This document shows, one piece after another, positions 44,373-62,768 of a DNA stretch of 64,000 bases. The notes beneath the pieces are model-generated. The model was not told the origin of the DNA and ran no database searches. It saw nothing but the letters and a program-made list of their open reading frames with translations. The stretch lies in NCBI RefSeq assembly GCF_003063645.1, contig NZ_NESJ01000001.1, positions 124,001 to 188,000 on the forward strand, in the 5' to 3' direction. This stretch comes from Limnohabitans sp. 2KL-51 (GTDB lineage: Bacteria; Pseudomonadota; Gammaproteobacteria; Burkholderiales; Burkholderiaceae_C). A program made the translations under genes and the position numbers. How positions within the stretch are numbered: position 1 is the stretch's first letter; every line of letters starts with the position of its first letter.

Positions 44373-45290
44373 ATGACCATCAGCCGACAACAAATCACCT
44401 TGCTGATCATTTTGACTTTGGTCTGGGGTTTCAACTGGCCCATGCTCAAGCTGGGCGTCAGTGAATTTCCCCCCTTGTCATTTCGCAGTTTGAGCATGTG
44501 GCTGGGCTTGCCCTTTTTGGGCTTGGTGCTGTACTTTAAAAAAGTGTCTTTCAAAATTCCGATGGCTGATTGGCGAGAGCTTTTCATTTTGGCCATCACA
44601 AACATGCTGGTTTGGCATGTGTTGATCATCCTGGCCGTGCAGAATTTGTCCAGCGGTCGTTCTGCGATTTTGGGTTACACCATGCCGATTTTTTCGGCCT
44701 TGATTGGGGTGCTCTGGTTCGGCGCGGCCATGCGCTGGCGGGCTTGGGCAGGCGTAGGCTGTGCGGCCCTCGGTGTGGTGCTCTTGCTTTGGCATGAATT
44801 GAGTGCCATCGCAGGAAAACCGCTGGGCATTGTGCTGGGTCTGATCGCAGCAGCTTTTTGGGGCTTGGGCACGCAGCAAATTCGCCACACCCGCATGCAA
44901 TTACCTACTTTGGCGATCGTGTTCTGGATGACCTGCATGAGCACATGGCTGATGAGCGTCCTGGCGTTTTTCTTTGAGCGAAGAGACTGGGGGCCGATTC
45001 CGGACATCACCTGGGTATCGATTGTTTACAACGCTTTTGGTGTGTTTGTGTTTGCCCAGGCAGCGTGGTTGTCACTGGCGCGCAATTTGCCCCCGCTGGC
45101 CTCCACACTGAGTGTGATGTTCATTCCGGTGCTGGGTGTTTTCAGCGGTGCCTACTTCCTCAACGAAGCTTTGCATTGGCAAGACTGGGCCGCCATCGTG
45201 CTGATCGTGCTGGCCATTGCCTCTGTGCTGTGGCCCGCCAGTACCCCCCAGCCCCAGCCCGACAAGCGACCGACACCTGACAGACCATGA
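44373..45290 (+). CDS. EamA/DMT-family transporter
   Basis: 305 residues with about ten hydrophobic helices in two EamA repeats; first helix ITLLIILTLVWGFNWPMLK is typical of the drug/metabolite transporter superfamily. The substrate is not predictable. The C-terminus is Pro-rich. It overlaps the downstream amidase by 4 bp (ATGA), so export or uptake may be linked to the amidase substrate. The 141-bp upstream gap has no other gene. Confidence 0.88.
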   Translation: MTISRQQITLLIILTLVWGFNWPMLKLGVSEFPPLSFRSLSMWLGLPFLGLVLYFKKVSFKIPMADWRELFILAITNMLVWHVLIILAVQNLSSGRSAILGYTMPIFSALIGVLWFGAAMRWRAWAGVGCAALGVVLLLWHELSAIAGKPLGIVLGLIAAAFWGLGTQQIRHTRMQLPTLAIVFWMTCMSTWLMSVLAFFFERRDWGPIPDITWVSIVYNAFGVFVFAQAAWLSLARNLPPLASTLSVMFIPVLGVFSGAYFLNEALHWQDWAAIVLIVLAIASVLWPASTPQPQPDKRPTPDRP

Positions 45291-46606
45291 ACCAGGATCT
45301 GACCCTTTTGAACTTGGCTGCCTTGCAGCAGGCCTATGCGCAAGGCCTCACCAACCCTGTGGCCGTGACCCGCGCGCATTTGGCACGCATCGCGCAGCGC
45401 AACCCGGCACTGCAGGCCTTTGTGCATGTGTGCGAAAACCTGGCCTTGCAACAGGCCCAGGCCAGTGCCGAGCGCTGGGCCAGCGGGCAGCCGCTGGGGC
45501 CACTCGATGGGGGGGTGATGGCCCTCAAAGACAACATCAATGTGCTGTGCATGCCGTGCACGGCAGGCACAGCGGCATACGAACAGCGCATGCCTGCGCA
45601 CGATGCGCCCGTTTATCAGCGCCTGCGCGATGCCGGCATGGTGTTGTTGGGCAAGCTCAACATGCACGAAGCCGCCTTGGGGGCCACGACCGACAACCCG
45701 GTGTACGGCCGCTGCATCAACCCCTTGCGCGAGGGCTTCACGCCGGGCGGCTCCAGTGGTGGCTCTGCCGCTGCTGTGGCCGACCACCTGTGTACCATCG
45801 CCATGGGCACCGACACCATGGGCTCGGTCCGCATTCCGGCAGCTTATTGCGGCGTGATGGGCATGATCCCCACGCGCAAGCGCATCCCCACGGACGGCAT
45901 CGTGCCCCTGAGCCCCACGCTGGATGTGGCCGGACCGCTGGCGCGCAGTGGTCACGACCTCGCCCAAACGATGGCTTGCCTCTTGGGCATCAGCCTGCCA
46001 CCCGCTGCGCAGGAAAGTGTTTGGCGCGGTTTGCGCGTGGGCATCCTGCCTCAAACGGCTGAGGTGGAAATGACCCCGGCTGTGCACCAAGCCTGGCAGG
46101 CCACTCAGCAGCGCCTTCAGGCGCAGGGCGCGCAGGTGCAAACCGTGCTTTTGCCCGATTGGTCGCCTGCCCGCAACCGTTTGCATGCCTTGCTCATGAG
46201 CGAATGGGAAGGTGCGGATTACTGGCAGAACGCGTTGGGTTCTGAGCTGCCTGGTTTGAGTGCGGGCTTGCAAAAAATGCTGCATTACGGTGCCCGGTTG
46301 AGCGCGGAAAAACGGCAAGCGAGCCAAGCCGCCATCGATGGCTTGCGTGCGCAGGCTGGGGCTTTGTTTGCAGGCATCGATGTCCTGCTCTTGCCCACCA
46401 CGCCGCACACGAGTTTTGCCCACACCGAAGCCGCACCCGCCAGCCAGGCAGACTGGGCATGCTTGGCCAATATGCTGGGGGCACCCGCTTTGTCCTTTCC
46501 TTGCCCGACCGAGGGGTTGCCAGTATCTTGCCAGTTGCTGGCCGCGCCCGGTCAGGACGAGCGCTTGCTTTCGCTGGCCTGTGCGCTTGACACCTTCTGG
46601 GGCTGA
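45287..46606 (+). CDS. Amidase-signature family hydrolase
   Basis: 439 residues. The Ser-cisSer-Lys triad is visible: K81 (MALKDNIN), GGSSGGS around 154-160 and nucleophile S180 (GTDTMGSVRIPA). It hydrolyses an amide; the family includes GatA, allophanate hydrolase and arylamidases. It stands alone without gatB/gatC, so a catabolic amidase is likely. Its last 55 bp overlap the convergent MmgE/PrpD gene. Confidence 0.9.
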   Translation: MNQDLTLLNLAALQQAYAQGLTNPVAVTRAHLARIAQRNPALQAFVHVCENLALQQAQASAERWASGQPLGPLDGGVMALKDNINVLCMPCTAGTAAYEQRMPAHDAPVYQRLRDAGMVLLGKLNMHEAALGATTDNPVYGRCINPLREGFTPGGSSGGSAAAVADHLCTIAMGTDTMGSVRIPAAYCGVMGMIPTRKRIPTDGIVPLSPTLDVAGPLARSGHDLAQTMACLLGISLPPAAQESVWRGLRVGILPQTAEVEMTPAVHQAWQATQQRLQAQGAQVQTVLLPDWSPARNRLHALLMSEWEGADYWQNALGSELPGLSAGLQKMLHYGARLSAEKRQASQAAIDGLRAQAGALFAGIDVLLLPTTPHTSFAHTEAAPASQADWACLANMLGAPALSFPCPTEGLPVSCQLLAAPGQDERLLSLACALDTFWG

Positions 46607-47973
46607 CGCCCGGCTTGGAGGCTGTCCCACAAAGGCCCCAAGGTGTGGGCCTGAGGAAGCGCCCCAACCAAGCCAATGAGCTGCTCGGCCTGCGCCATGC
46701 CCCAGTCACTGGCTTGCAGCAACTGATTGGCTTTGGCCCGCACTTGCTCAGGGCTCAAGGGGTTTTCAGGGTCGCCCAACACGTTGACCACCTCGCTGCT
46801 GTGGTGGCTGCCGTTGGCCATTTGCAGGTGCAGCCGTGCACCAAAGCTTTGCGGGTAAGCCCGGTCTTGGACCTGCCCACAGACCAAGGTCACGCGATCA
46901 CGCAGCGCGGCGCACGTCGGGTCTGCCAAGGCCGCTGGCCCTGTGGCCTCCAGCCCGAACCCGCCATGGCGCAGGCTCCAAGCCACACCATGCTGCAAAC
47001 TGAACTTGCCTTGCAAAGCCGTTTGCGGTTGAGGCTGATCTGCAAACGACAGCGCCACGCTGTAGGTTTCCAGTCGAATGCTGGCGATCTGATCGGGGTC
47101 AACCCCTTGGGTGTGCATCTGCAGCGCACACTCGATGGCAGGGTGCACATGCCTGCAGGCAGGCCAAGGCTTGAAGCTGACATCGTGCACACGCCAGGCG
47201 CGCTTGGGTGGGGTTTGCAAAAGGGCTTGCGCCCGCACTGCGTCCAGATTGCCGCCAGTGGCCTTGAGCCAACCCAGTGGGCCTTCCAGGATGGACAAAG
47301 GACCGGTCATGCCCGCTGCCGCCATGTCGGCGGCCACCAGGCCTGCTTGCGCACTGTGCCCTGCTGCCATCTGCTTGGCCAGGCCCGGCTCCAAGCGGCA
47401 TTGCCAGACACCCGCTGCTTGCATGCCCGCCAGGGCCAGAGCGTGTTGAGTCTGTGTGGTGTCGAGCTTCAGCAAGCGGGCGCAAGCCATGGCACTGGCA
47501 AAGACTCCAGTTGTCGCGGTGCTGTACCACTGGGCGTAGTGGTTTGGCCCGCTCAGCAGACCGAGCACGATGCCGGTTTCATAGCCAACCACCATCGCAT
47601 CGAGCAAGGCTTCGGCACTGGCGTTTTCGCGTTCGGCCATGGCCAGCGCGGCAGGAATGACCGTGTCGCCCGCATGCACAACGGCTTCGCGGTGCACATC
47701 GTCCATTTCATGGCAGCTGCCCAAGCTGCCGTTCCACCGGGCAGCTTCTGCCGCCTGCAAGCCGCTGTGCCCACAGACCCAAATGGGACCGGGAGCCTGC
47801 TGGGCTGCCCATCGCCGCAGAACTGCACCCAGTTCGGTCGTTTGTCCCAAATGCGCGCAACCCATCCAGTCGATCAGCTGCAGAGCAGCGCGTTGTCGGT
47901 CATGCAGGCTGATGGGTCGGCGCAAAGCCTCTACCAGCCATTCACTCCAGGGCGTCGCGGCGGCGAGGGTCAT
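46552..47973 (-). CDS. MmgE/PrpD family protein (copy 1)
   Basis: 473 residues of the MmgE/PrpD fold: GSCHEMDDVHREAVVHAGD (family HExDD..H region), HPAIECALQ and a C-terminal small domain (VVNVLGDPENPLSPEQV, as in PrpD VxxPxGxPxNP). The best known members are 2-methylcitrate dehydratase and related dehydratases or isomerases; this one sits with a crotonase and an SDR, not with prpBC, so the substrate is different. Last gene of the nine-gene operon. The ATG overlaps the stop of the upstream crotonase (TGATG). Confidence 0.85.
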   Translation of the reverse strand: MTLAAATPWSEWLVEALRRPISLHDRQRAALQLIDWMGCAHLGQTTELGAVLRRWAAQQAPGPIWVCGHSGLQAAEAARWNGSLGSCHEMDDVHREAVVHAGDTVIPAALAMAERENASAEALLDAMVVGYETGIVLGLLSGPNHYAQWYSTATTGVFASAMACARLLKLDTTQTQHALALAGMQAAGVWQCRLEPGLAKQMAAGHSAQAGLVAADMAAAGMTGPLSILEGPLGWLKATGGNLDAVRAQALLQTPPKRAWRVHDVSFKPWPACRHVHPAIECALQMHTQGVDPDQIASIRLETYSVALSFADQPQPQTALQGKFSLQHGVAWSLRHGGFGLEATGPAALADPTCAALRDRVTLVCGQVQDRAYPQSFGARLHLQMANGSHHSSEVVNVLGDPENPLSPEQVRAKANQLLQASDWGMAQAEQLIGLVGALPQAHTLGPLWDSLQAGRQPQKVSSAQASESKRSS

Positions 47974-48773
47974 CACAGCCCCTTGAATTGAGGGAGCCTT
48001 TTCTCATTGAAGGCGAGCACGCCCTCGCGCCGATCTGCGGTGTCCACCAACTGGTTGTAGGCCTCCACTTCAAACCGATAAGCGGTACGCAATTCCATTT
48101 GGCCGCCGTATCGGATGGACTTTTTGACTTGTCGCACCGACAGCGGTGCATTGCGCGCCAGGGTTTGGGCTGTGCGCAGGGTTTGGCTCAACAACTGGTC
48201 AGGTTCGATCGCTTGATTGAGCAAGCCCCAGTCCAGCGCCTGCTGGGCGGTGAAGGCTTGCCCCGTCATGATGAGTTCTTTGGCGCGGCGCTCGCCAATC
48301 GCGCGGGGCAGGTTTTGTGTGCCGCCCATGCCGGGCATGATGCCCAAGGTGGCCTCAGGCAAGGCAAAGCGCGCGCCGCTGCTGGCGTAGATGAAGTCGC
48401 AGCACAATGCCAACTCCAGACCACCGCCATAGGCATGGCCGTTGATGGCAGCGATCACGGGCAGCGGCAAATCCACCAAGGCCCAGGACATGCGTTCAAA
48501 GATTTCATGTTGATGCATCCATTGCGCACGCGTCATGCCCTGGCGCTCTTTCAGGTCGCCCCCTGCACAGAAAATTTTCGAGCCTGCGCCGGTCAAGACC
48601 ACGCAGCGCAAGCCTTGCGCATCGTTGCTCAGGCGCAGCCACAGTTCCAGCAGTTCCTGTCCCATGCGCGTGTTGATGGCGTTGCCCACATTGGGGCGGT
48701 TCAGGGTGACTTGCAGGACGCCATCTGCGTGGTGTTCCAGCAAGAGAGTTTCAGGGGATTGGAGCGGGTCCAT
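47973..48773 (-). CDS. Enoyl-CoA hydratase (crotonase), both catalytic Glu present
   Basis: 266 residues. FCAGGDLKE and GGGLE120LAL form the oxyanion hole and first Glu; LPE140ATLGIMP carries the second. Both match the Glu pair of mitochondrial enoyl-CoA hydratase, so hydratase activity is plausible. The ATG at 48773 (MDPLQSPETLLL) is 22 bp after the SDR stop; a GTG at 48785 is an alternative. Confidence 0.9.
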   Translation of the reverse strand: MDPLQSPETLLLEHHADGVLQVTLNRPNVGNAINTRMGQELLELWLRLSNDAQGLRCVVLTGAGSKIFCAGGDLKERQGMTRAQWMHQHEIFERMSWALVDLPLPVIAAINGHAYGGGLELALCCDFIYASSGARFALPEATLGIMPGMGGTQNLPRAIGERRAKELIMTGQAFTAQQALDWGLLNQAIEPDQLLSQTLRTAQTLARNAPLSVRQVKKSIRYGGQMELRTAYRFEVEAYNQLVDTADRREGVLAFNEKRLPQFKGL

Positions 48774-48795
48774 GGGTGTTGACACCAAGCAAGAC

Positions 48796-49572
48796 TCAAT
48801 TCGGAGCGTACTGCTGGCCACCATCGACGTGCAGGACTGTGCCGCTCAGGTAGCCACAAATGGGCGATGAGCAATGCACCGCAAGGCGTGCAATTTCGTC
48901 GGGTTCGGCCAAGCGGCCAAAGGGCAATTTTTGAGTCATCTCCAGCCAGCGCGAGGCATCGCCCAATTTGCTGGCCGCTTGCTGCCTGAGCACGCCTTCG
49001 ATGCGGTCGCTGCGCGTGGGCGAGGGGTTGATGCCGAACACGCGCACGCCCTTGCGCACGCTGCCTGCGCCAATGCCCTGGGTGAATGAGATCAGCGCAC
49101 CGTTGGCCGCAGAGCCGCAGATGTACTCGTACCGGGGTGCTGCCCCGGCCATGCCGATGATGTTGCAAATCACGCCAGAGCCACGCGACTCCATAGCCCC
49201 CAGATACAGCCGGGTGAGGTTGATGTAACTGAACAGTTTGAGCTCCCACGCCCCGCGCCACGCGTCTTCGGCGATGTCGTGGAGGCTGCCACCGGGAATG
49301 GCACCGGCGTTGTTGACCAGGATGTCTGCAGTTGGAAACAAGTTGAACAAAGCGCGGTCCGAGCTGGGTTGCGACAAATCAATCTCCGCGATGGCGGGAG
49401 CGTCAAAGCCCTCTTTGGCAAAAGCAGCCAGAGCGGTGTCCAGGTTGCTGCGCTGACGAGATACCAAAACGGGCTTGGCACCTTCTCGGGCAAAGTTCAA
49501 GGCAATGGCCAAGCCAATGCCTTTAGAGCCACCCGTGACGATGACTTGTTTGTGTTCGAGTTCGAGGTTCAT
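48796..49572 (-). CDS. SDR-fold protein lacking the catalytic tetrad (copy 1)
   Basis: 258 residues. The cofactor site TGGSKGIG (13-20) and LVNNAG (85-90) are intact. At the catalytic positions the usual Ser, Tyr and Lys are G140, G153 and N157 (ICGSAANGAL), so it is not a standard dehydrogenase. The C-terminus HVDGGQ is normal. It resembles SDR subgroups reported to lack the tetrad. There is a 90-bp gap to the deacetylase upstream. Copy 2 at 59380 has the same changes. Confidence 0.85.
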   Translation of the reverse strand: MNLELEHKQVIVTGGSKGIGLAIALNFAREGAKPVLVSRQRSNLDTALAAFAKEGFDAPAIAEIDLSQPSSDRALFNLFPTADILVNNAGAIPGGSLHDIAEDAWRGAWELKLFSYINLTRLYLGAMESRGSGVICNIIGMAGAAPRYEYICGSAANGALISFTQGIGAGSVRKGVRVFGINPSPTRSDRIEGVLRQQAASKLGDASRWLEMTQKLPFGRLAEPDEIARLAVHCSSPICGYLSGTVLHVDGGQQYAPN

Positions 49573-49662
49573 GCGAAAGCTCTGCGTAGGGGCCAGTCGC
49601 TGGACCGGCCCGGGGTTTCTGGATTTGAGGTGATGCTTGCGAGGGGCGCAGAGCGGCCCAGT

Positions 49663-50547
49663 TCAAGGACCAGGTGCGGGCACTTGCGCGGTGTACCAGT
49701 CGGCGATTTGCGCGCCGTTCATGAAGCACACTTGAGGTGACTTCATCAGCAAGTCCAGCATGCGCTCAAAGCTGGCAAAGCGGTGGGGCACGCCAATCAG
49801 GTGCGGGTGCAGGCCGATGGCCAGCACGCGGGGGTGCGTGGCCGCCTCACGTTCAAACAAGGCCAGCGTCCGCGCCAGGCGTTCGTACATGTCGTCGCTG
49901 GTGTGTTTCTCGATGGCGTAGACGATTGAGTCGTTGATTTCAAGGTTGTAGGGCAAGGCCAGCAAGGGGCCGTTGCGCGTTTGCATCCAACTGGGCACAT
50001 CGTCCACCACCCAGTCAAAAACGTAGTCCACGCCCTGCTTTTTCAGCAACTCGGGCGTGTCGTGCGTTTCGCGCAGACCGGGGCTGAGCCAGCCTCGGGG
50101 GCGTTTGCCCGTGAAGCGCTCAATCATGTCCAGGCTCATGGCGATCAGCGACTCTTCGGACTCGCCCTGGTTGTGGTTCAGGCTTTTTTGGTGCACCCCA
50201 TGGCCAATGAACTCCCAGCCAGCATCGTGCATGGCTTGCGCCGCTTGCGGGTAAGCGTTGATAACCCCGGCGTTGAAACTGGTGGAGGCGGGCAGGCCAC
50301 GGTCTTGGATGGCCCGCAAGATGCGCGGCAAGCCCGCCCGCATGCCGTAATCGGCCCAGCTGAAGTTGGGCACATCGGGCACTGTTTCTTTGCCGTGGGG
50401 CGGCGTGATGATGGTGCGCGGCATGCTCGACTCAAACTGCCAATGCTCCACGTTTACCACCAAGTGCACCATGATGGCGCCCTCAGGCGCAGCCTTGAGG
50501 GCCGGGCCATCGTTGGAGAAGCGGTAAGGAATGCGGGGGTTGGCCAT
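49663..50547 (-). CDS. Polysaccharide-deacetylase-fold hydrolase, PuuE-like
   Basis: 294 residues of the NodB/carbohydrate esterase 4 fold. N-terminal MVHLVVNVEHWQFE, GHGVHQKSLNH, SPGLRETHDTP and FDWVVDDVPSW match the PuuE (cofactor-independent allantoinase) branch rather than chitin deacetylases. There is no signal peptide, so it acts in the cytosol, possibly on a cyclic or acyl amide taken up by the adjacent ABC transporter. The start is 1 bp after the ATPase stop. Substrate unknown. Confidence 0.8.
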   Translation of the reverse strand: MANPRIPYRFSNDGPALKAAPEGAIMVHLVVNVEHWQFESSMPRTIITPPHGKETVPDVPNFSWADYGMRAGLPRILRAIQDRGLPASTSFNAGVINAYPQAAQAMHDAGWEFIGHGVHQKSLNHNQGESEESLIAMSLDMIERFTGKRPRGWLSPGLRETHDTPELLKKQGVDYVFDWVVDDVPSWMQTRNGPLLALPYNLEINDSIVYAIEKHTSDDMYERLARTLALFEREAATHPRVLAIGLHPHLIGVPHRFASFERMLDLLMKSPQVCFMNGAQIADWYTAQVPAPGP

Positions 50548-50548
50548 G

Positions 50549-51298
50549 TCAGTGTCGAATGAGGTTGAGGATCTCGAGCTTGAGCGATGCAAAGGTTTCG
50601 CTGGCCGTGTCGGCCACGGTGCGCGGACGCGCCAGCGGCACGGTGATCTTGGTTTGGATGCGGCCTGGGCGGGCCGACATCACGTAAATGGCGCTGGCCA
50701 AAAAGATCGCCTCGTCGATGTCGTGCGTGACAAAGATGATGGTGGGCTTGAGCTTTTGCCACACGGTGAGCAGCAGCTCTTGCATGGTCAGGCGGGTTTG
50801 TGCATCCAGCGCGCCAAAGGGCTCGTCCATCAGCAACACGCGTGAGCCCAGCGTGAGGATGCGGGCAATGCCCACACGTTGGCGCATGCCACCCGACAGT
50901 TGCACCGGCAAATGGTTCTTGAAATCGCTCAGACCCACGATCTTGATCATTTCATGGGCGCGGTCTTCGTATTCGCTGCGTGCCATGCCCTGCACCTTGG
51001 GGCCAAAAATCACGTTGTCCCAGACACTCAGCCAGGGAAACAATGCGGCTTCTTGAAAAACCACGCCACGGTCAGGTCCAGGTGCGCTGACAACACCACC
51101 ATTGACCAACAGCTGGCCCGCTGTGGGCTGCTCAAACCCAGCAATCAGGTTGAGCAAGGTGGATTTGCCGCAGCCAGAAGGCCCAAGCAAGGCCACCAAT
51201 TCACCTGGAGCGACCTGCAATTGGATGTCTTCTAGGGCCTTGACGGGCGTGACGCCCGGGTAGGTCTTGTAAAGGTTTTGAATGGAAATATCGGACAT
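50549..51298 (-). CDS. ABC transporter ATP-binding protein, NitT/TauT (SsuB-like)
   Basis: 249 residues. Walker A GPSGCGKST, Q-loop FQEAALFPW, signature LSGGMRQRVG, Walker B VLLMDEPFGALD and H-loop FVTHDIDEA. It powers import with the permease and binding protein encoded just upstream (8 bp and beyond). Confidence 0.95.
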   Translation of the reverse strand: MSDISIQNLYKTYPGVTPVKALEDIQLQVAPGELVALLGPSGCGKSTLLNLIAGFEQPTAGQLLVNGGVVSAPGPDRGVVFQEAALFPWLSVWDNVIFGPKVQGMARSEYEDRAHEMIKIVGLSDFKNHLPVQLSGGMRQRVGIARILTLGSRVLLMDEPFGALDAQTRLTMQELLLTVWQKLKPTIIFVTHDIDEAIFLASAIYVMSARPGRIQTKITVPLARPRTVADTASETFASLKLEILNLIRH

Positions 51299-51306
51299 GT
51301 TGTTTC

Positions 51307-52113
51307 TTAATGGCTTTGCAGCATGCGCCAGACCAAAACCTTGCTTTCAATGAAAACGATCAGGCGATCACTCAAAAACCCCATGATGCCGATCGACACC
51401 ATGTCGGCCAGCACAATGTCCATTCGCCCCACGTAATAGGCGTCCCACAGCACATAGCCCAGACCGGACTTGACGGCTACCATTTCAGAGACAATCACCG
51501 CCGTCCAGGAAATGCCCAGACCAATGCGCAAACCGGTGAAGATGGAGGGCATGGCCGCGGGCAAAACCACCCGGTACAGCAATTGCCTGCGACTGGCACC
51601 CATCATCAGGGCCGCGCGCACCAGGTTGCGCTCGACATCGCGCGCACCCTGCGTGGTGTTGACCACGATGGCATAAAAGCCACCCAGAAAAATCAGAAAA
51701 ATGGCACCCATGTCCCGAATGCCAAAGAGCGCGATCGAAAATGGCAACCAAGCCGTGATCGGGATGGGCCTCAAGCTCTGGATGAGCGGGTCAAACAGTT
51801 GCTGAACCAAACGGCTCCACCCGATCAGCAAACCCAGAGGGACACCGATCAGAGCCGCCAGGAAAAAGCCCTGAGCCACCCGCATCGAGGAGTACTGGAC
51901 GTTGGACATCCAGGAGCCCAAGTAAGGGTTCAGGCCCATGCCGGGCGAGCCGAAAATCCAGCCGTGCCAGCCTTCCAAAACCAGCATGGGCGTGGGCAGG
52001 ATGCCGGCCATGCCTGGCCTGCTGCCTGCCACCTGCCAAATGACCAGAACCACCGCTGGCACAAACAGGCCAAGCACTGTCCGACGAAGGGTATCGAGAG
52101 AAGCGTTAGCCAT
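51307..52113 (-). CDS. ABC transporter permease, NitT/TauT (SsuC-like)
   Basis: 268 residues, about six membrane helices. The EAA loop (AALMMGASRRQLLYRVVLPAA) that docks the ATPase is clear. Located between the binding protein and ATPase, 15 bp after the first. Confidence 0.93.
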   Translation of the reverse strand: MANASLDTLRRTVLGLFVPAVVLVIWQVAGSRPGMAGILPTPMLVLEGWHGWIFGSPGMGLNPYLGSWMSNVQYSSMRVAQGFFLAALIGVPLGLLIGWSRLVQQLFDPLIQSLRPIPITAWLPFSIALFGIRDMGAIFLIFLGGFYAIVVNTTQGARDVERNLVRAALMMGASRRQLLYRVVLPAAMPSIFTGLRIGLGISWTAVIVSEMVAVKSGLGYVLWDAYYVGRMDIVLADMVSIGIMGFLSDRLIVFIESKVLVWRMLQSH

Positions 52114-52128
52114 GTGGGTGCTGCCTGC

Positions 52129-53106
52129 TTACTTTTTGAGTTCAACGACCATGGAGTCGTCGTACAGAGCGGCGGCTTCCTTGGTCACGTCTTTCTGCAC
52201 AATGCCTTGCTTGAAGGCGGCTTCAGCCAAGCGCGAAACTTGTTCTTTGGTCAAGACGCCACCGAGTTTGATGATCTTGGCCGACTCTTTCGTCACGTTC
52301 ATGGGCAAGCCGGTGTATTTGGAATAGGCATCGGCAAAGACATCCTTGTTCTTGCTCAGGGTTTCTTCGGCCTTGAGGTAAGCCCACAGGAAGCGGCGCA
52401 CCAATTCTTTCTTTTGGGTCATGGCTTCGCCAGAGGCGGCCAGCATACCCAGTTCGGCACCGACTGCGCGAGACTGGCTGTACTCCAGTTTTTGCGAAAA
52501 GTAAGCATCGCCTTCGGCCACAGCCTGCGACTCAAAGGGCTCCCACAGCACCATGGCATCGATGTCGCCACGCTTCATCGCCTGCACAAAAGCGGTGCCG
52601 CCACCTTGCACGTTCACGGGGGTGAACGAGTTGTAGGGGATGTTTCTCTCGATCAAAGTCATGGCCCACTGGAACCAGACGGCCGAGCCCGGAGCAATGG
52701 CAATCTTTTTGCCTGCAATGTCGCCCCAGTCATCGATCTTCACGCCTTTGCGCACCACCAGGTATTTGGGCGAGCTGCCCACACCGGTCAGGCCAATCAG
52801 GTTTTTGCTGCCTTGGCCGGCCACGATGGCCAGGTCACCCGCGCCCACGGCCGACACGTCGACCGAATTGGACAACAGTGCGGTGCGGGCATCGGCGTAA
52901 CGCACAAATTCTGCGCGCTTGACTTCGATGTTCATTTTCTTGAGTTCTTCTTCGACCAAGAGCATGGGCGAGAGGTGACCCACTTTGACGTAGCCCACGG
53001 TGAGGGTGGCTTTGTCTTTGAGGGGGGCGGGCGCTGGGCCCAAAGCCAAAGCCATGCCGGTGGAGACCGACAGCGCAAAGCCGATGAGGGAAGTCCAAAG
53101 TTTCAT
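52129..53106 (-). CDS. Periplasmic binding protein, SsuA/TauA/NMT1-like
   Basis: 325 residues with signal peptide MKLWTSLIGFALSVSTGMA. The type II fold carries LTVGYVKVGHLSPM, DVSAVGAGDLAIVAG and WEPFESQAV, as in the sulfonate, taurine and aromatic-acid binding families. The ligand is unpredicted. The ATG at 53106 is chosen because it starts the signal peptide. Confidence 0.9.
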   Translation of the reverse strand: MKLWTSLIGFALSVSTGMALALGPAPAPLKDKATLTVGYVKVGHLSPMLLVEEELKKMNIEVKRAEFVRYADARTALLSNSVDVSAVGAGDLAIVAGQGSKNLIGLTGVGSSPKYLVVRKGVKIDDWGDIAGKKIAIAPGSAVWFQWAMTLIERNIPYNSFTPVNVQGGGTAFVQAMKRGDIDAMVLWEPFESQAVAEGDAYFSQKLEYSQSRAVGAELGMLAASGEAMTQKKELVRRFLWAYLKAEETLSKNKDVFADAYSKYTGLPMNVTKESAKIIKLGGVLTKEQVSRLAEAAFKQGIVQKDVTKEAAALYDDSMVVELKK

Positions 53107-53128
53107 CTGAATACTCCTGGGTTGGTGG

Positions 53129-53905
53129 TTACTGGCCGGTGAACAAAGGGGACCGCTTTTGTGCGAAAGCCAGCCGGCCTTCCGCATAATCTGTGCTTTT
53201 GAAACAGGCGTCGATGGTGGTTTTCACTGACATCATGTCTTTTTCATCATCTGCCAAGGCCACCAGGGTTTTCTTGGCGGCCTGAATGGTCAAGGGCGCA
53301 TTGGTGGCGATCTCTTGGGCCAATGCGGTGCAGTGCGCAAAAACATCCTCAACTACAGCAAGGACCATGCCCATGGCCTGTGCGCTTTGCGCGTCGTAGA
53401 CCCGGGCGGTATAAAAAGCCTCGGCCGTGGCCTGAGGCCCCAGGTTGTTCAGGAAGCTTTTCATGTTGTCGATGTCGTAGCCCAGTCCCAAGCGGGCCGC
53501 AGGCATGCGAAAACGCGAATGCGGGGCGGCGTAACGCATGTCGCAACTCAAGGCCAGCCCAAGACCGCCGCCATAACAAATGCCACTGATAGCCGCAATC
53601 ACCGGCACGCGGCAGCGAAAAATCGCCTGCTGGGTCCGTTTGACCATGTCGTTGTAATGCGCCACAGAGGCTTCAGAATTGCGCTGGGTTTCGAACTCGC
53701 TGATATTGGCGCCCGACACAAACGACTTTTCGCCCGCACCGCGCAGGACGCACACGCGAATTTCGGGGCTACGGTCGATCTCGTCAAAAGCCGCCAGCAA
53801 GGATGTCCACATGGACAGGCTCATCGCGTTGTGCCGGGAGACGTCGTCGATCGTCACTTGCGCCACATGGCCTTGCACCACCAGATCGATACGGCCTTCG
53901 CTCAT
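53129..53905 (-). CDS. Crotonase-fold protein lacking both hydratase Glu residues
   Basis: 258 residues. SGANISEF and YGGGLGLALS make the oxyanion hole, but the first Glu position is G116 and the second is A136 (MPAARLGLGYD). A typical hydration reaction is thus unlikely; isomerase, thioesterase or hydrolase chemistry fits better. It overlaps the CoA-transferase stop as ATGA, so the two are probably steps in one pathway. Confidence 0.87.
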   Translation of the reverse strand: MSEGRIDLVVQGHVAQVTIDDVSRHNAMSLSMWTSLLAAFDEIDRSPEIRVCVLRGAGEKSFVSGANISEFETQRNSEASVAHYNDMVKRTQQAIFRCRVPVIAAISGICYGGGLGLALSCDMRYAAPHSRFRMPAARLGLGYDIDNMKSFLNNLGPQATAEAFYTARVYDAQSAQAMGMVLAVVEDVFAHCTALAQEIATNAPLTIQAAKKTLVALADDEKDMMSVKTTIDACFKSTDYAEGRLAFAQKRSPLFTGQ

Positions 53906-55098
53906 ACAACACCCCGAGCGTGAAAGTCTTCAATGTCAGTGACCGAAAAACCCAGATCACCCAGCACCTCGTCGGTGTGCTCACCCCAGCCGGGTGCCGG
54001 GGCCACCACCTTGGACGGCGTGCGGCTCAGCACCACAGGTTGGGTGATGAAGTGCATGTCCTTGCCAAATTGCGTGGGCAGTGTGGCAGTCACATTCAGG
54101 TGCTTGACTTGCTCGTCCTCAAACACCTGTGGGACGGTGTAGACCGGCCCGGCAGGCACGCCCGCTTGGTTGAGCAGCGAGACCCACTGGTGCACGGTTT
54201 TCTTCGGAAACTCTTGCGCGATCAGTTGATTCAAGCGGGCCCTGTTTTTGACACGCAGGGGCTCGGTCACAAACTCCGGGTCCTGGAACCACTCGGGTTT
54301 TTGCAGCACTTCGCAAAAGCGCTTCCAGTTGCCCTCGCCCGATGCGCCCAGGTTGAAGCAGCCATCGCTGGCCTCGAACAAGCCCATCGGCGAGCTGGTG
54401 GGGTGGTTGTTGCCCACCTGCACCGGGACATCGTTGTCGTTCAGGTAGCGGGCCATCTGGAAATCCATCATGGCAATTTGCGAATGCAGCAAAGAGCTTT
54501 GCACCCACTGGCCCTGGCCCGAAGTCTCACGCTCAATCAAGGCCACCAGAATACCAATGGCGCAGTACAGCCCGGCGCTCAAATCGGCCACCGCCAGACC
54601 CGCCCGAATGGGGCCGTGTTCGGGCTCGCCCGTCACGCTCATCAGCCCGCCCATGCCTTGGATGATCTGGTCAAACCCGGGCCGCCACGCATAGGGGCCA
54701 TCCTGCCCAAAGCCGGAAATGCTGGCCAGAATGATGCGCGGGTTGAGGGCCTTGAGCGATTCGTAATCCAGACCCAGGCGGTCCTTGACGTCGGGACGCC
54801 AGTTTTCCACCACCACATCGGCCTCGGCGATCATCCGCTTGAGGATGTCCATCGCCCCCTCTTTCTTGAGGTTCAGCGTCATCGAGCGTTTGTTGCGGTT
54901 GATGTTCTGAAAGTCGCCCCCCTTGCGGTTGGCGGCAAACATGGCTTCGTTCGGGTCGACCCCTTCGGGCGGCTCCACGCGCACCACATCTGCACCAAAA
55001 TCGGTCAATATGCGCACGCAGTTGGGGCCGGCGCGAACGCGAGACAGGTCGATGACCTTGAAACGTGAAAGCGCAAGGGAAGCTTGGATTTTGGCCAT
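53902..55098 (-). CDS. Family III CoA-transferase (CaiB/BaiF)
   Basis: 398 residues. KVIDLSRVRAGPNC, VENWRPDV, SISGFGQDGPYA and the catalytic Asp D172 (GLAVADLSAGLY) define the family. It moves CoA from a donor such as succinyl-CoA to a carboxylic acid. As the first gene of the operon it probably activates the imported substrate. The ATG is at 55098; an upstream frame to 55137 lies in the promoter region. Confidence 0.92.
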   Translation of the reverse strand: MAKIQASLALSRFKVIDLSRVRAGPNCVRILTDFGADVVRVEPPEGVDPNEAMFAANRKGGDFQNINRNKRSMTLNLKKEGAMDILKRMIAEADVVVENWRPDVKDRLGLDYESLKALNPRIILASISGFGQDGPYAWRPGFDQIIQGMGGLMSVTGEPEHGPIRAGLAVADLSAGLYCAIGILVALIERETSGQGQWVQSSLLHSQIAMMDFQMARYLNDNDVPVQVGNNHPTSSPMGLFEASDGCFNLGASGEGNWKRFCEVLQKPEWFQDPEFVTEPLRVKNRARLNQLIAQEFPKKTVHQWVSLLNQAGVPAGPVYTVPQVFEDEQVKHLNVTATLPTQFGKDMHFITQPVVLSRTPSKVVAPAPGWGEHTDEVLGDLGFSVTDIEDFHARGVV

Positions 55099-55139
55099 AA
55101 ATTGTGTGTTGGAGGACTTTAAAAACAAAGTCATCATCC

Positions 55140-55153
55140 ATAAATATATTTAT
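55140..55153. promoter_or_regulatory. Perfect 14-bp palindrome, candidate GntR operator
   Basis: ATAAATATATTTAT is a perfect dyad that overlaps the -10 box and the expected start of the CoA-transferase operon. The FCD-type GntR gene begins 63 bp away, so this is a likely binding site. Confidence 0.5.
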
Positions 55154-55177
55154 AGCCCATATCCGCATGCATTGCAA
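55149..55177 (-). promoter_or_regulatory. Sigma-70 promoter of the CoA-transferase operon
   Basis: On the minus strand TTGCAA (55177-55172) and TATAAA (55154-55149) are separated by exactly 17 bp. Transcription would start near 55142, leaving a ~44-nt leader before the ATG at 55098. Confidence 0.6.
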
Positions 55178-55215
55178 TATGACAAAATATCAGTGTTTGC
55201 CCTAAGAAACCCCCC

Positions 55216-55881
55216 ATGAAAGTCAGCGACCAAATCCGTTTGTACTTGGAAGAAGCCATCTCCAAGGGCGATTTGTTGCCCGGGGATGCCATCGACGAAA
55301 GTGCTTTGGCCGAACAATTTGGGGTGTCAAAAACGCCGATTCGGGAAGCCCTCATTCAATTGCAGGCCCAAGGCTGGGTCAGCAACATGCCCCGGGGCGG
55401 CAGCACCGTGGCCAAGATGAACTTGCAGCAACTGCTCAGCCTGTGGGAGTTGCTGGCCGAGCTGGAGGCCGTGGCTGTGCGCCTGGCTTGCGATCGCATG
55501 GCCGAAGAGGACATGCAAAAGCTGTTTGTGTTGCACGAAGAAAGCCGCCTGGTGGCCGCGGCCGAAGACTTGCAGGGCTGGCAAAAGCTCAACCTGGCGT
55601 TCCACGAACTCATTTACCAAGGCACACGCAATCCATTTTTAAGGCAAGAGGTTCTGCGTATCCGTTTTCGGACAGGCGTTTATCGACGCCACGCTTTCGG
55701 TGCCTTGGGCCGTTTGCAAACCTCCTTTGACCAGCATGAATTGATCGTGCAGGCCCTCAGGCAGCGCAATGCGGAGGGAGCCGTCGAATCCATGCGCGAC
55801 CACATGCGACCCGGGCGCGATGCCAAAAGCCTCAATGATTTCATCTTGAACCTGCCCACAGACCTGTTGGCCTCTCAGTAA
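55216..55881 (+). CDS. GntR family regulator, FCD (FadR-C) subfamily
   Basis: 221 residues. The N-terminal winged HTH ([24 protein letters not shown]) is followed by an all-helical FCD domain with metal/ligand histidines ([28 protein letters not shown]). Such proteins usually repress divergent catabolic operons and respond to a carboxylic-acid or acyl-CoA ligand. It is divergent from the nine-gene operon, with the promoter and palindrome between. Confidence 0.9.
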
Positions 55882-56758: not shown

Positions 56759-56974
56759 AGCGCGTTTTCAGGCAACTGGAGAGCCTACAAGCGGGTGGAT
56801 GGGCGTTCGCGTTCCTTGAAAGCCTGTCACAACCGTTCGCCTTTTTTTACCCATCTCGTTTAGGATCAAAAAAGGTTAAAGCCCACAAAACAGCATCCCG
56901 CCAGGGCCGCAGAAGGTTGCTGTGACCGCTTTCCACGCGTTTTTCCGTTCTGATCTTCATTCGAAAGGTTTTTG

Positions 56975-57955
56975 ATGGCATCCAAACTGACCCGATATGT
57001 TTGCGCAGTGGTGTGCGCTTTGGCAGGCACATGGGCCCAGGCGCAAAGCGTTGGCGCCTACCCCAACCGCCCGATCAAACTCATCGTGACGGTGCCGCCT
57101 GGGGGCGCTGCAGACTTCATCGCCAGATTGCTGGCAGCCAAGTTGTCCACCTCGATGGGGCAACCCGTTGTTGTGGAAAACAAGGCGGGCGCCAGTGGGT
57201 CTGTCGCCAGCGATTTCGTCGCCAAATCGGCGCCTGATGGTTATACATTGTTGCAAAACTCCATCACGACGCACGGCATTGGCCCCCATTTGATGGCCAA
57301 GTTGCCCTACGACCCCATCACATCGTTTGCACCCATCACCATGCTGGCCAGCTTGCCGTTGATCATGACCATCAACGCTGAATTGAAAGCACAAACGCTG
57401 CCTGAGTTTGTTTCGCTGGCCAAGCAAAGGCCCGGTAAGTTGGCCTTCGCCTCGTCGGGTAACGGTGGTGCACCGCACATGGCGGGCGAGTTGTTCACCG
57501 CTGCGACAGCGATCGATATGATTCATGCGCCTTACCGTGGCAGCGGCCCCGCTGTGGCCGACCTCGTCGGTGGACAAGTCCAAGTCATGTTTGATGGAGC
57601 CCCGTCTTTGCTGCCCCACATCACGAGCGGCAAGATCCGGGCTTTGGCCGCTGCCAGCCCTCGACGAAACCCCCTGTTGCCCAACACGCCCACCTTTGCT
57701 GAGTTGGGTTTTCCTTCGGTCAATGTCGCACTTTGGTACGGCTTGATGGCGCCAGCGGGCACACCGCCTGACATCATTGCCCGCTTGAACCGCGAAGTGA
57801 ACCAGGCACTCAAATCAAGTGACGTTCTCGAGCGTTTTGCGTCCCAAGGAACAGAGGCTTTAGGTGGTACGCCAGAGCAAGCGGCCAGCTACGTGCGGCA
57901 AGAACTTGACCGCTGGGGCCCGGTGGTGAAAAAAGCAGGCATCGTTGCCAATTGA
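56975..57955 (+). CDS. Bug-family (TTT) tripartite tricarboxylate solute-binding protein
   Basis: 326 residues. Signal peptide MASKLTRYVCAVVCALAG...AQA, then YPNRPIKLIVTVPPGGAADF, VENKAGASG and APYRGSGPAVADLVGGQVQ, the Bug signatures. These periplasmic proteins bind small carboxylates or aromatics and are strongly expanded in Burkholderiales. No tctAB membrane genes are nearby, so it may serve a distant transporter or sense the substrate. ATG 56975 is used; a TTG precedes it. Confidence 0.92.
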   Translation: MASKLTRYVCAVVCALAGTWAQAQSVGAYPNRPIKLIVTVPPGGAADFIARLLAAKLSTSMGQPVVVENKAGASGSVASDFVAKSAPDGYTLLQNSITTHGIGPHLMAKLPYDPITSFAPITMLASLPLIMTINAELKAQTLPEFVSLAKQRPGKLAFASSGNGGAPHMAGELFTAATAIDMIHAPYRGSGPAVADLVGGQVQVMFDGAPSLLPHITSGKIRALAAASPRRNPLLPNTPTFAELGFPSVNVALWYGLMAPAGTPPDIIARLNREVNQALKSSDVLERFASQGTEALGGTPEQAASYVRQELDRWGPVVKKAGIVAN

Positions 57956-57998
57956 GCCTGGACGCAGGCATGGTTTCAAGGGTGTTGCGGCCTCTTTC

Positions 57999-59342
57999 AT
58001 GAAGCTCTTGGATGGCTCATCTCCTACGCATGTTCTTGCGCAGTGGGCAGTTGATTCGAAGTGGGCTGATGTGGATGCGGCCACCCAATCCTCGGCGGCT
58101 TCATCATGGATGAATTGGTTCGCTTGTGCCTTAGGTGGCGCAGGTGATCCCGCCTTGGACAGGCTGCTCTTGGCGCTAGCGCCCTTCGGCCGCGGCGATG
58201 CGCCACTGATCGGCCGCGCTGAAAAGTTTGACCCTGCAAACATAGCATTGCTTCATGCTTTTTCTTCGAACATCCTTGACTACGACGACACGCATTGGCC
58301 GACAGGAATTCATCCTGCGGGCACGGTGGCATCGGCCCTGGTGGCCTGGGCCAGTCAGACGGTCGTGAGCGGTCAGGATTTCTTGCATGCGTTCTTGTTG
58401 GGTATGGAGGTGGAGTGCCGAATCGGTCTGGCCGTCTCGCCTGGCCACTACGAACGGGGTTGGCACATCACGGCCACTTGCGGCGTCTTCGGCGCTGCAG
58501 TAGCTGTGGGACACCTGATGCGACTGAGCCCCCTGCAAATGGCTTGGGCGATGGGTCATGCGGCCACACAGTCGAGCGGCTTGGTGGCCAGTCTGGGCAG
58601 CATGGCCAAAAGCTTGAACATTGCCCATGCGGCACGCAACGGCTTGGTGTCAGCGCAGCTTGCAAGGCATGGCATCACGGCCAACGACCGGGTGCTGGAG
58701 GCGCGTTTCGGATTCTCCGAGGTCATGGGGTCACGACCGATGGATGCGGGCCTGTGCGAAGGCTTGGGACAACATTGGGTAGCGACACACAATACGTTCA
58801 AGCCCTACCCGTGCGGCTTTTTGTTGCACCCCACACTGGACGCCTGCCTGAGCTTGGCCGACGACCCGATCCATGCTGGGGATGAAATTGAACACATCCT
58901 GGTCACGGTTCATCCCTTGTCGCAAATACGCGCAGATCGACCCCGCCCGGCGGATGGACTTGAATCCAAGCTCAGCCTTCAGCATGCTGTGGCCGTGGCC
59001 ATGACCTGGGGGCAAGCCGGTGTGCGCGCCTTTACAGACGCCGCTGTGAATGATCTGGCTGTGCACGACTGCCGTCAAAAGGTCAAGATCGTGGCAGACG
59101 AACGCCTGCGCACGGAAGAAGCGCGGGTGGTCATTCACCTGCACAGCGGGCGTGTGATCACCCGTGAGATGCTGGGGACACCTGCACCCATAACCCCTGA
59201 GGCACTGGAGCGCAAGTTTCGCGAGCTCGCCGCTTGGGGGGCGCCGCATTGCAACGCCGACGAACTGTTGGAGGCCCTGGGCCGATTTCCTCAAATGGCC
59301 AATGCCGCTGACCTGATCGCCGTGACCACGCCGCAATCCTGA
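57999..59342 (+). CDS. MmgE/PrpD family protein (copy 2)
   Basis: 447 residues, same fold as copy 1 at 46552: ILDYDDTHWPTGIHPAGT matches the family DD..H active-site region, FKPYPCGFLLHPTLDACL aligns with the FKPWPACRHVHPAIECAL of copy 1. It begins 43 bp after the Bug gene if the ATG 57999 is used; an in-frame TTG at 57945 would overlap it. Dehydratase or epimerase function is inferred from the family; the substrate is unknown. Confidence 0.83.
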   Translation: MKLLDGSSPTHVLAQWAVDSKWADVDAATQSSAASSWMNWFACALGGAGDPALDRLLLALAPFGRGDAPLIGRAEKFDPANIALLHAFSSNILDYDDTHWPTGIHPAGTVASALVAWASQTVVSGQDFLHAFLLGMEVECRIGLAVSPGHYERGWHITATCGVFGAAVAVGHLMRLSPLQMAWAMGHAATQSSGLVASLGSMAKSLNIAHAARNGLVSAQLARHGITANDRVLEARFGFSEVMGSRPMDAGLCEGLGQHWVATHNTFKPYPCGFLLHPTLDACLSLADDPIHAGDEIEHILVTVHPLSQIRADRPRPADGLESKLSLQHAVAVAMTWGQAGVRAFTDAAVNDLAVHDCRQKVKIVADERLRTEEARVVIHLHSGRVITREMLGTPAPITPEALERKFRELAAWGAPHCNADELLEALGRFPQMANAADLIAVTTPQS

Positions 59343-59379
59343 TGGCGTCCCTTTTTAATCACTCGAACCCCGCAAAAAA

Positions 59380-60174
59380 ATGAACCTCCATCTTCAAAAC
59401 AAGCACATCCTCATCACGGGCGGGAGCAAGGGCATTGGGTTGGCATGCGCCGGCGCATTTTTACAAGAGGGCGCGCATGTGACCTTGGTGGCGCGAAATT
59501 CCGACACCTTGGTAGCGGCGCAACAAGAGCTGAGTCTGACAGCACCCGCAGGCTGCAAAATTCATGTGGTGTCAGCAGATCTGACACAAGCTGACGCTGC
59601 CCTGGCCGCACTTGCTGAGGCAGAAGGCTTTGGGGGTCCGATCGATGTGCTGGTCAATTCGGCCGGCGCTGCCAAAAAGACGTCAGCCGCAGACCTGAAA
59701 CCGCAGGACTGGCAAAACGCGATGCAGTCTAAGTTTTTCAGTTACATCAATATGATGGACCCCGTTATCAAAAAAATGGCGGCGCGTGGGCAGGGCGCCA
59801 TCGTGAATGTTGTTGGCAACGGCGGCAAGGTGGCCAGCCCTGTGCACCTGCCGGGCGGTGCAGCCAACGCCGCCTTGATGTTGGCAACCGCTGGTCTGGC
59901 GAACGCGTATGCCTGGCAAGGCGTTCGGGTCAATGCGGTCAATCCCGGTAGCACTTTCACTCAGCGGTTGGAAACCGCCATAGCGGCAGACGCCAAGAGT
60001 CGGCTTATATCGCCCGAGACGGCACTGTCGCAACTCACCGAAAAGCTGCCCATGGGGCGGATTGCCCAACCAGCGGAGGTTGCGGCTGCGGTCGTATTTT
60101 TGGCGTCCAGCCAAGCGAGTTACATCACCGGTGCCAATTTGTCGATGGATGGCGCGTTGGTGCCTTTGATCTGA
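59380..60174 (+). CDS. SDR-fold protein lacking the catalytic tetrad (copy 2)
   Basis: 264 residues. TGGSKGIG (13-20) and VLVNSAGA are intact, but the catalytic Ser, Tyr and Lys are G146, G159 and N163 (LPGGAANAAL). The first 30 residues are nearly identical to copy 1 at 48796 (MNLHLQNKH vs MNLELEHKQ). It starts 37 bp after the MmgE/PrpD stop. Role unknown; a non-redox use of the NAD(P) fold is possible. Confidence 0.85.
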   Translation: MNLHLQNKHILITGGSKGIGLACAGAFLQEGAHVTLVARNSDTLVAAQQELSLTAPAGCKIHVVSADLTQADAALAALAEAEGFGGPIDVLVNSAGAAKKTSAADLKPQDWQNAMQSKFFSYINMMDPVIKKMAARGQGAIVNVVGNGGKVASPVHLPGGAANAALMLATAGLANAYAWQGVRVNAVNPGSTFTQRLETAIAADAKSRLISPETALSQLTEKLPMGRIAQPAEVAAAVVFLASSQASYITGANLSMDGALVPLI

Positions 60175-60282
60175 GCGCACCTGTTTTGGCGGCGCCATTT
60201 CTTGCCATCGACTTGCCCGGTTGGTTATACCAGCGCGCTGGCCTTCAGCGGGTTCAGCCAAGCCCCCATAAAGGAGATCCGT

Positions 60283-61047
60283 ATGTACGAACATTTGATT
60301 GTCAAAGAACAAGACCGCTGGGTTGAAGTTCATTTGAACCGGCCCCAAGTTCGGCATGCCCTGTCTCGCGCCCTGATGCGCGAGATCACTACCGTGGCGC
60401 GGGCCCTGAGCGATCGCACGGACATCGACGTGGTTATCCTCACGGGCGATACGCGGTGTTTTTCTGCGGGTGCCGATTTGAACGATGCGCAAGCCTGGGC
60501 CGACGATAGCTTGTCTACTGTTCAGCGGCGCGACATTGCGGGCACGGGTTTTCGAATGTGCAAGGCTTGGGAAGAAATGCCACAGATCACCATCGCCGCC
60601 ATCGAAGGCTATGCCGTGGGCGGCGGGCTGGCGCTGTCATTGGCCTGCGACTGGCGTGTGCTGGCGCAAGACGCCTTTGTGTCCTTGCCCGAAATCGCCT
60701 TGGGCATTCCGCTCACCTGGGGCACCATCCCTCGTTTGGTCAACCTGCTGGGCCCAGCCAAAGCCAAACGCTTGACCATCTTGTGCGAACGCGTGCCTGC
60801 GCCTGAAGCCCTGAGCCTTGGGCTGGTCGACTACACCTGTGACAAAGGCCAAGCCTTGTTCCGCGCACAAGCCCTGGCCGCGCAAACCCTGGCCCAACCC
60901 GCAGCCACCGTGCGCATGAGCAAAGAGTCGGTCAACGCCGCCGCCACAGCCCTGAACCACGCATCGTCCTACATGGCACACGACCAGATTGCGCTGGCAG
61001 CATCCAGCCCCGAGTCACGCGCAGCGCGGGGTCAGGCTTTGCGTTGA
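60283..61047 (+). CDS. Crotonase-fold protein with one catalytic Glu
   Basis: 254 residues. FSAGADLND and VGGGLALSL form the oxyanion hole; the first Glu position is A117 while E137 (SLPEIALGIP) is kept. Enzymes with only the second Glu are often isomerases. An AAGGAG Shine-Dalgarno 7 bases upstream supports ATG 60283 over the frame open to 60202. It completes the second PrpD-SDR-crotonase triad. Confidence 0.87.
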   Translation: MYEHLIVKEQDRWVEVHLNRPQVRHALSRALMREITTVARALSDRTDIDVVILTGDTRCFSAGADLNDAQAWADDSLSTVQRRDIAGTGFRMCKAWEEMPQITIAAIEGYAVGGGLALSLACDWRVLAQDAFVSLPEIALGIPLTWGTIPRLVNLLGPAKAKRLTILCERVPAPEALSLGLVDYTCDKGQALFRAQALAAQTLAQPAATVRMSKESVNAAATALNHASSYMAHDQIALAASSPESRAARGQALR

Positions 61048-61664: not shown

Positions 61665-61679
61665 ACCTCAGCGCCTTTT

Positions 61680-62729: not shown

Positions 62730-62768
62730 GTGCAAGCTCGCATCAATGAAGGGAGAAGTTTGGGGCTG

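Follow-up and report, generated by a model that had tools for sequence, protein, structure and literature searches.

A 64,000-nucleotide stretch of the genome of Limnohabitans sp. 2KL-51 (contig NZ_NESJ01000001.1, positions 124,001 to 188,000; hereafter the window) carries nine open reading frames, all on the minus strand between 46552 and 55098, that we tentatively read – with somewhat less than even confidence – as an operon that breaks down a small cyclic imide, or a cyclic amide of closely similar kind, under the control of a GntR regulator and with a back end linked to coenzyme A (CoA). The carbons of the imide ring would probably form a substituted C4-dicarboxylate, a substrate class that we infer. 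The components are of known kinds; their combination is not found in the open-licence papers searched, which yielded no published gene-for-gene match, and the claim of an initial annotation that no described pathway has this combination stands to that extent. In the same literature, the matches listed for succinimide and maleimide degradation are, by title, all chemistry or pharmacology.

The first gene encodes a class III CoA-transferase of the CaiB/Frc family (CaiB; 53902–55098; PF02515 (CoA_transf_3), 5.9e-119). It is followed by genes for a crotonase-fold protein lacking both catalytic Glu residues (ECH1; 53129–53905; PF00378 (ECH_1)), an SsuA-like (NMT1-type) periplasmic binding protein (52129–53106; PF13379/PF09084; TIGR01728), an SsuC-like permease (51307–52113; PF00528 (BPD_transp_1)), an SsuB-like ATPase (50549–51298; PF00005 (ABC_tran)), a PuuE-like hydrolase of the polysaccharide-deacetylase fold, for which we propose a cyclic imide or amide as substrate (49663–50547; Polysacc_deac_1), a short-chain dehydrogenase/reductase (SDR) of the PRK06125 subfamily (48796–49572; adh_short; NF004779, 323 bits against a cut-off of 261), an enoyl-CoA hydratase (ECH2; 47973–48773; PF00378, 8.3e-70) and an MmgE/PrpD family protein (46552–47976; PF03972/PF19305). 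All nine have the expected Pfam domains. With likely ATG starts derived from the translations (50547 for the PuuE-like gene, 48773 for ECH2), the intergenic spacings from CaiB to MmgE are -4, 22, 15, 8, 1, 90, 22 and -4 bp: frames, domains and spacings thus agree with the earlier description of nine co-directional genes with short gaps and a single gap of 90 bp.

Conservation of the gene set

Relatives of the PuuE-like gene were obtained by a family scan of genome contigs and the best 80 of 186 were taken as the sample. Because a home-made gene caller called some antisense frames (clusters 16, 17 and 22 look spurious), genes were counted by tblastn (E ≤1e-15, identity ≥45%, at least 35% of query length), a procedure that misses distant members. 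Denominators are the loci with enough flank around the PuuE-like anchor; the 80 loci include many related Burkholderiales assemblies and the counts are thus not numbers of independent events. The nearest relatives, with 94–98% identity, come from Limnohabitans, Comamonadaceae and uncultured Burkholderiales records, and the records carrying relatives include Limnohabitans, Polaromonas, Pigmentiphaga, Caballeronia, Achromobacter, Parapusillimonas and Azospirillum. In a family search over 200 genomes, own genome included, the orthologue is rare: only one other genome (G080) exceeds 50% identity, with 79%, and the next reaches 46%.

CaiB, ECH1, SsuA, SsuC, SsuB and the SDR all lie by the PuuE-like anchor in 29 of the 39 loci with full flanks. 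Taken singly, they are found beside it as follows: CaiB 44/51, ECH1 47/56, SsuA 54/62, SsuC 59/68, SsuB 65/74 and the SDR 61/70. Of the 48 loci whose left flank is long enough, 33 have the GntR gene; an operon-borne amidase is present in 27 of 48 with enough flank, and an acyl-CoA dehydrogenase (ACAD), which in many relatives sits after the SDR, in 39 of 65. CaiB, ECH1, the importer, the SDR, GntR, the amidase and the ACAD are the commonest neighbors of the PuuE-like gene. ECH2 (19/57) and MmgE (17/53), on the other hand, belong to a minority of loci. Co-occurrence of the operon families in other bacteria – a check set beforehand – is thus found, and these counts, together with the palindrome described below, which is unique in the genome, show that the assembly of the operon is not due to chance. 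The initial view of a single CoA-dependent catabolic unit with its own importer and GntR regulator gains from the conserved synteny and the palindrome; its nine genes as the full natural unit are rejected, ECH2 and MmgE being minority members, and amidase and ACAD common neighbors.

Two plasmids carry related arrangements. In Azospirillum, a row of genes after a LysR gene encodes an amidase, a CoA transferase, an enoyl-CoA hydratase, a binding protein, an ATPase, the PuuE-like protein and an SDR (the gene table is incomplete and lists no permease there); a Variovorax plasmid holds GntR, amidase, CoA transferase, crotonase, PuuE-like and MmgE genes together, the importer being absent. A variant is seen at nine loci (L056, L061, L063, L069, L072, L074, L077, L080 and L081): a cupin gene and a second SDR gene are inserted, and SsuA is inverted between SsuB and the PuuE-like gene. 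Three assemblies titled Bordetella parapertussis (L096, L100, L105) also carry these genes and look like mislabelled environmental bins.

A candidate operator

A GntR/FCD regulator (55216–55881, plus strand; PF00392, PF07729) is encoded divergently from CaiB. Between the two, in the divergent promoter, lies the A/T palindrome CTATAAATATATTTATGG (55138–55155, minus strand), which is the sole such site in the genome of 4,585,454 bases (~4.59 Mb) when up to two mismatches are allowed, and which did not occur in 100 shuffles of the window. Among 41 divergent regions of relatives, 26 contain a degenerate form of it, and no further copy turned up over the 732,035 bases that these loci comprise; in the other 15 regions it is not detected at two mismatches, several of these keeping, by eye, a half site. 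The 8-mer ATAAATAT occurs in 37 of 42 divergent regions, that of the window included. As judged from these sequence comparisons, the palindrome is a strong, if not proven, candidate for the GntR operator. A promoter scan of 46400–55300 gave no sigma-70-type site, and terminator-like sites in the same interval are near background (12, as against a shuffled mean of 9.8).

The PuuE-like hydrolase and its amidase neighbors

The PuuE-like protein belongs by fold to the polysaccharide deacetylases of PuuE type. In PuuE, the metal triad is replaced by Glu-His-Trp. Mapped by motif spacing, the window protein has the Glu and the His at the motif positions and lacks a Trp close to the His motif; Gln121 is invariant in all 81 PuuE-like sequences. 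HMMER, however, aligns His120 – through a gap – with the second of the metal-site His residues of HP0310, so that the protein may still have a metal site. The score against the allantoinase model TIGR03212 is 127.6 bits, far under the cut-off of 424.6, and with the missing Trp a plain allantoinase was rejected.

In the nicotinate breakdown of Aspergillus nidulans, HxnM, a PuuE-related cyclic imide hydrolase, is followed by the amidase HxnN (PMC9304392, in the available text). Using 46 amidase queries (E ≤1e-15), an amidase is found within ~10 kb of the PuuE-like gene in 34 of the 39 full-flank loci, an association that is genomic only; for scale, one amidase query gives 11 matches in the whole of the own genome (E ≤1e-10), and none in four stretches of the own genome that lie apart from PuuE-like genes (L125, L133–L135). 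Two types were distinguished: of the 80 loci, 30 have the operon-borne amidase and 12 the convergent type of the window, none having both. In the window, the amidase-signature protein proposed as half-amidase partner (45287–46606, plus strand; PF01425, 6.4e-91) has the Lys-Ser-Ser triad, and its gene shares 55 bp with the convergent MmgE gene; neither this overlap nor the ACAD gene of relatives is mentioned in the initial annotation. PuuE-like paralogues in the own genome (~40% identity) also have amidase neighbors, adjacent on contig C5 and ~5 kb off on C75 (the homologue on C8 was left out of this comparison).

These paralogue loci have features of their own. On C75 (L117), two neighboring PuuE-like genes lie with genes for molybdenum hydroxylase subunits, an amidase, an FAA hydrolase and an isochorismatase, a cluster that by gene content looks like one for an N-heterocycle; a similar pair of PuuE-like genes stands beside the operon at L094. 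On C5 (L118, L133), where the PuuE-like gene adjoins the amidase, Amdase-like and FAD monooxygenase genes are found side by side ~33 kb away.

Crotonases and SDR

The two crotonases differ as the initial annotation had supposed. ECH1 lacks both catalytic Glu residues in 46 of 47 aligned sequences, that of the window included (the remaining sequence has a Glu at the first position), whereas ECH2, described as a bona fide enoyl-CoA hydratase, has both in 21 of 21. That the SDR is devoid of the catalytic tetrad is also borne out: when it is aligned with 8g9m, an SDR of known structure, with no gaps in the region concerned, the Asn-Ser-Tyr-Lys positions are occupied by Lys112, Gly140, Gly153 and Asn157, all four of them identical throughout 60 sequences. 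The conserved Tyr150 was considered as the catalytic Tyr and ruled out by the same alignment and set of 60 sequences. ECH1 and the tetrad-less SDR are both part of the conserved core.

A proposed CoA-linked back end

A methylsuccinate/itaconate cluster, Ict-Mcd-Msi-Ich-Ccl, is described in Cupriavidus necator and Pseudomonas aeruginosa, and the MmgE/PrpD enzymes with known substrates have a four-carbon 1,4-dicarboxylate in common (PMC12290011, in the available text). The residues given there for Msi are His88, Glu91, His102, Tyr148, His152, Lys202 and Lys266. The corresponding residues of the window MmgE are Ser, Glu, His, Tyr, Tyr, Lys and Lys, so that five of the seven are kept; because Ser and Tyr replace His88 and His152, it is related in kind and not a plain Msi. 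A second MmgE/PrpD protein of the same genome, on contig C13, has all seven with the published spacing kept. This contig carries genes for an ACAD, an FAS1_DH-type hydratase, a class III CoA-transferase, MmgE/PrpD, a citrate-lyase-type lyase and a LysR regulator: all five classes of the itaconate/methylsuccinate cluster are together on C13, the window operon having CaiB and MmgE only.

All 41 aligned CaiB sequences, two own-genome paralogues among them, have an Asp172 of the catalytic type. For the ACAD of relatives, homologues in the own genome are found on C13 (69% identity) and C23 (61%), the former being 55–76% identical to 36 ACADs from the loci of relatives. Where relatives carry further genes of this kind, the itaconyl-CoA-hydratase-like protein matches 8khg (1.6e-57) and the RipC/Ccl-like protein reaches 174.9 bits against a cut-off of 375. 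By analogy, the back end may resemble methylsuccinate/itaconate degradation, with a counterpart cluster elsewhere in the genome, on C13.

Proposed pathway

Under the cyclic-imide reading, the SsuABC-like importer would take up a cyclic imide or similar lactam, the PuuE-like enzyme would open the ring by hydrolysis to a half-amide, and the neighboring amidase would free ammonia from it. The MmgE/PrpD protein, where present, might epimerise the free diacid, to which CaiB would then transfer CoA. An ACAD, operon-borne in many relatives and represented here by the candidates on C13 and C23, would oxidise the thioester; ECH2 or, in some relatives, the itaconyl-CoA-hydratase-like enzyme would hydrate the product, and cleavage would fall to a citramalyl-CoA-lyase-like enzyme, whose gene is on C13 in this genome and within the operon in a few relatives. 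Among these predicted reactions, imide opening, deamidation, CoA transfer and oxidation are those that gene association supports. The initial annotation suggested a plausible order, with import first, then hydrolysis of the ring by the PuuE-like protein, activation with CoA and hydration.

Several observations weigh against this reading. The window operon itself holds neither amidase nor ACAD, 5 of the 39 full-flank loci have no amidase match, and none was found at any of five other-genome loci of more distant PuuE-like genes (L119–L122, L124). CaiB and the ACAD of relatives fall under the cut-offs of every listed NCBIfam model, and the window MmgE, with Ser and Tyr in place of His88 and His152, was rejected as a plain methylsuccinate isomerase. 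Genes for the itaconyl-CoA-hydratase-like protein (12/53 loci) and the Ccl-like protein (6/53) are few, and the FAD monooxygenase (17/47) and Amdase-like (19/47) genes would serve no purpose in a pathway for simple alkylsuccinimides.

A bolder version, which we consider improbable, is a hitherto undescribed bacterioplankton pathway feeding on alkyl-substituted five-membered imides (of maleimide or succinimide type) by way of a 2,3-dialkyl C4-dicarboxylate, which a new MmgE/PrpD isomerase would epimerise, with new reactions for ECH1 and the SDR in the CoA chemistry that follows; as pure speculation, the imides might stem from oxidised tetrapyrrole fragments, for example of chlorophyll or bilins.

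If the cyclic-imide reading is right, imide opening and deamidation are joined to the CoA-dependent degradation of branched dicarboxylates in one regulated operon, which recurs in records of Limnohabitans, Polaromonas, Alcaligenaceae and Azospirillum; one source of carbon and nitrogen for freshwater bacteria would be identified, and a function given to many proteins now labelled 'polysaccharide deacetylase' or 'allantoinase'. ECH1 and the tetrad-less SDR would be two conserved proteins with chemistry still to be explored, and both the dedicated binding protein and the candidate operator, unique in the genome, allow the substrate to be sought by direct tests.

Alternative substrates

Two alternatives share the imide-opening core. 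In one, the six-membered imide glutarimide would be opened to glutaramate and deamidated to glutarate, which CaiB would activate; oxidation and decarboxylation by an ACAD resembling glutaryl-CoA dehydrogenase, followed by ECH2, would lead to acetyl-CoA. The best NCBIfam model for CaiB is indeed succinate--glutarate CoA-transferase (326 bits; succinyl-CoA:mesaconate CoA-transferase gives 262 against a cut-off of 700), glutaryl-CoA dehydrogenase Acd is the second-best model for the ACAD of relatives (220 bits, after acryloyl-CoA reductase with 240), and ECH2 is by its residues an ordinary hydratase. The CaiB and ACAD scores are, however, under the cut-offs (750 and 470), the four-carbon 1,4-dicarboxylates common to known MmgE/PrpD substrates (PMC12290011, in the available text) do not fit glutarate, and the Ccl-like and itaconyl-CoA-hydratase-like genes of some operons would lack a role; we regard the route as unlikely.

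The other is the breakdown of an N-heteroaromatic compound such as a hydroxypyridine: an FAD monooxygenase, present in relatives, would make a dihydroxy or dioxo ring for the PuuE-like enzyme to open, and the window organism would import a later intermediate or rely on enzymes coded elsewhere. The nearest matches of the L093 FAD monooxygenase are PnpA (6ain) and HspB (7da9), the second being a hydroxypyridine monooxygenase; in many loci such a gene is accompanied by an Amdase/maleate-isomerase-like gene; PuuE-like paralogues on C75 and in L119 are near genes for molybdenum hydroxylase subunits and FAA hydrolases; and HxnM itself works in nicotinate breakdown (PMC9304392, in the available text). 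Yet only 17 of 47 loci have the monooxygenase and its best relative in the own genome, on C5, is just 40% identical, so that we give this alternative, too, a low probability. In the Amdase/maleate-isomerase-like protein of L093 (16918–17691) and its orthologues, the catalytic Cys positions of the family seem by eye to be missing.

Use of a ureide or hydantoin as nitrogen source, the PuuE-like protein being an allantoinase or hydantoinase, is very doubtful given the low TIGR03212 score and the absence of the Trp; the more distant homologue on C8 may be the allantoinase of the genome, and CoA steps would be superfluous for ureides. Least probable is an operon for the import of sulfonates or taurine, to which the CoA enzymes would be only loosely tied: the importer subunits do resemble SsuABC/TauABC but score under the cut-offs of all listed models, Pfam reveals no desulfonation gene among the nine, and the enzyme core persists without the importer in L115, L102, L103, L105 and the Variovorax plasmid.

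Neighboring genes

A second set lies beside the operon on the plus strand (56972–61047) and encodes a TctC receptor, an MmgE/PrpD protein, an SDR that is tetrad-poor like that of the operon (225 bits for the PRK06125 subfamily model, cut-off 261) and a crotonase with one of the two Glu residues; the stretch 61251–63956 adds glyoxalase, beta-lactamase-family and acyl-CoA dehydrogenase genes. Among relatives, the four-gene set is found only at L049, and the crotonase alone at L037, L042 and L045, many loci ending earlier.

Comparison with known systems

The importer has the architecture of SsuABC/TauABC systems, with an NMT1-type binding protein, and differs in that its subunits are under the cut-offs of every listed model. 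By Pfam and architecture it is SsuABC-like; the hint of a sulfonate is weak (97 bits for the binding protein against the SsuA family TIGR01728, cut-off 163.5), and sulfonate import was set aside.

PuuE allantoinase (3cl6; HP0310 paper, PMC3084791, in the available text) has the same fold as the hydrolase. The two also agree in the Glu and His of the motif. Aligned by structure they are 27% identical, and the Trp of the third position is wanting in the window protein.

The Ict-Mcd-Msi-Ich-Ccl cluster (PMC12290011) is likewise composed of a class III CoA-transferase, an ACAD and an MmgE/PrpD protein, with its hydratase and lyase classes found in some relatives of the operon. The window operon differs in having CaiB and MmgE, a crotonase in place of Ich, and an MmgE that departs from Msi at two of seven residues; the words imide and amidase are absent from the main text of that paper.

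The closest parallel to the front end is HxnM/HxnN, in which a PuuE-related imide opener is likewise followed by an amidase and ammonia is released in two steps. That system, where HxnM is compared with HP0310, is fungal, works without CoA chemistry and yields alpha-hydroxyglutarate (PMC9304392, in the available text). The pairing of PuuE-like gene and amidase in the operon, and again at the paralogue loci on C5 and C75, repeats its logic.

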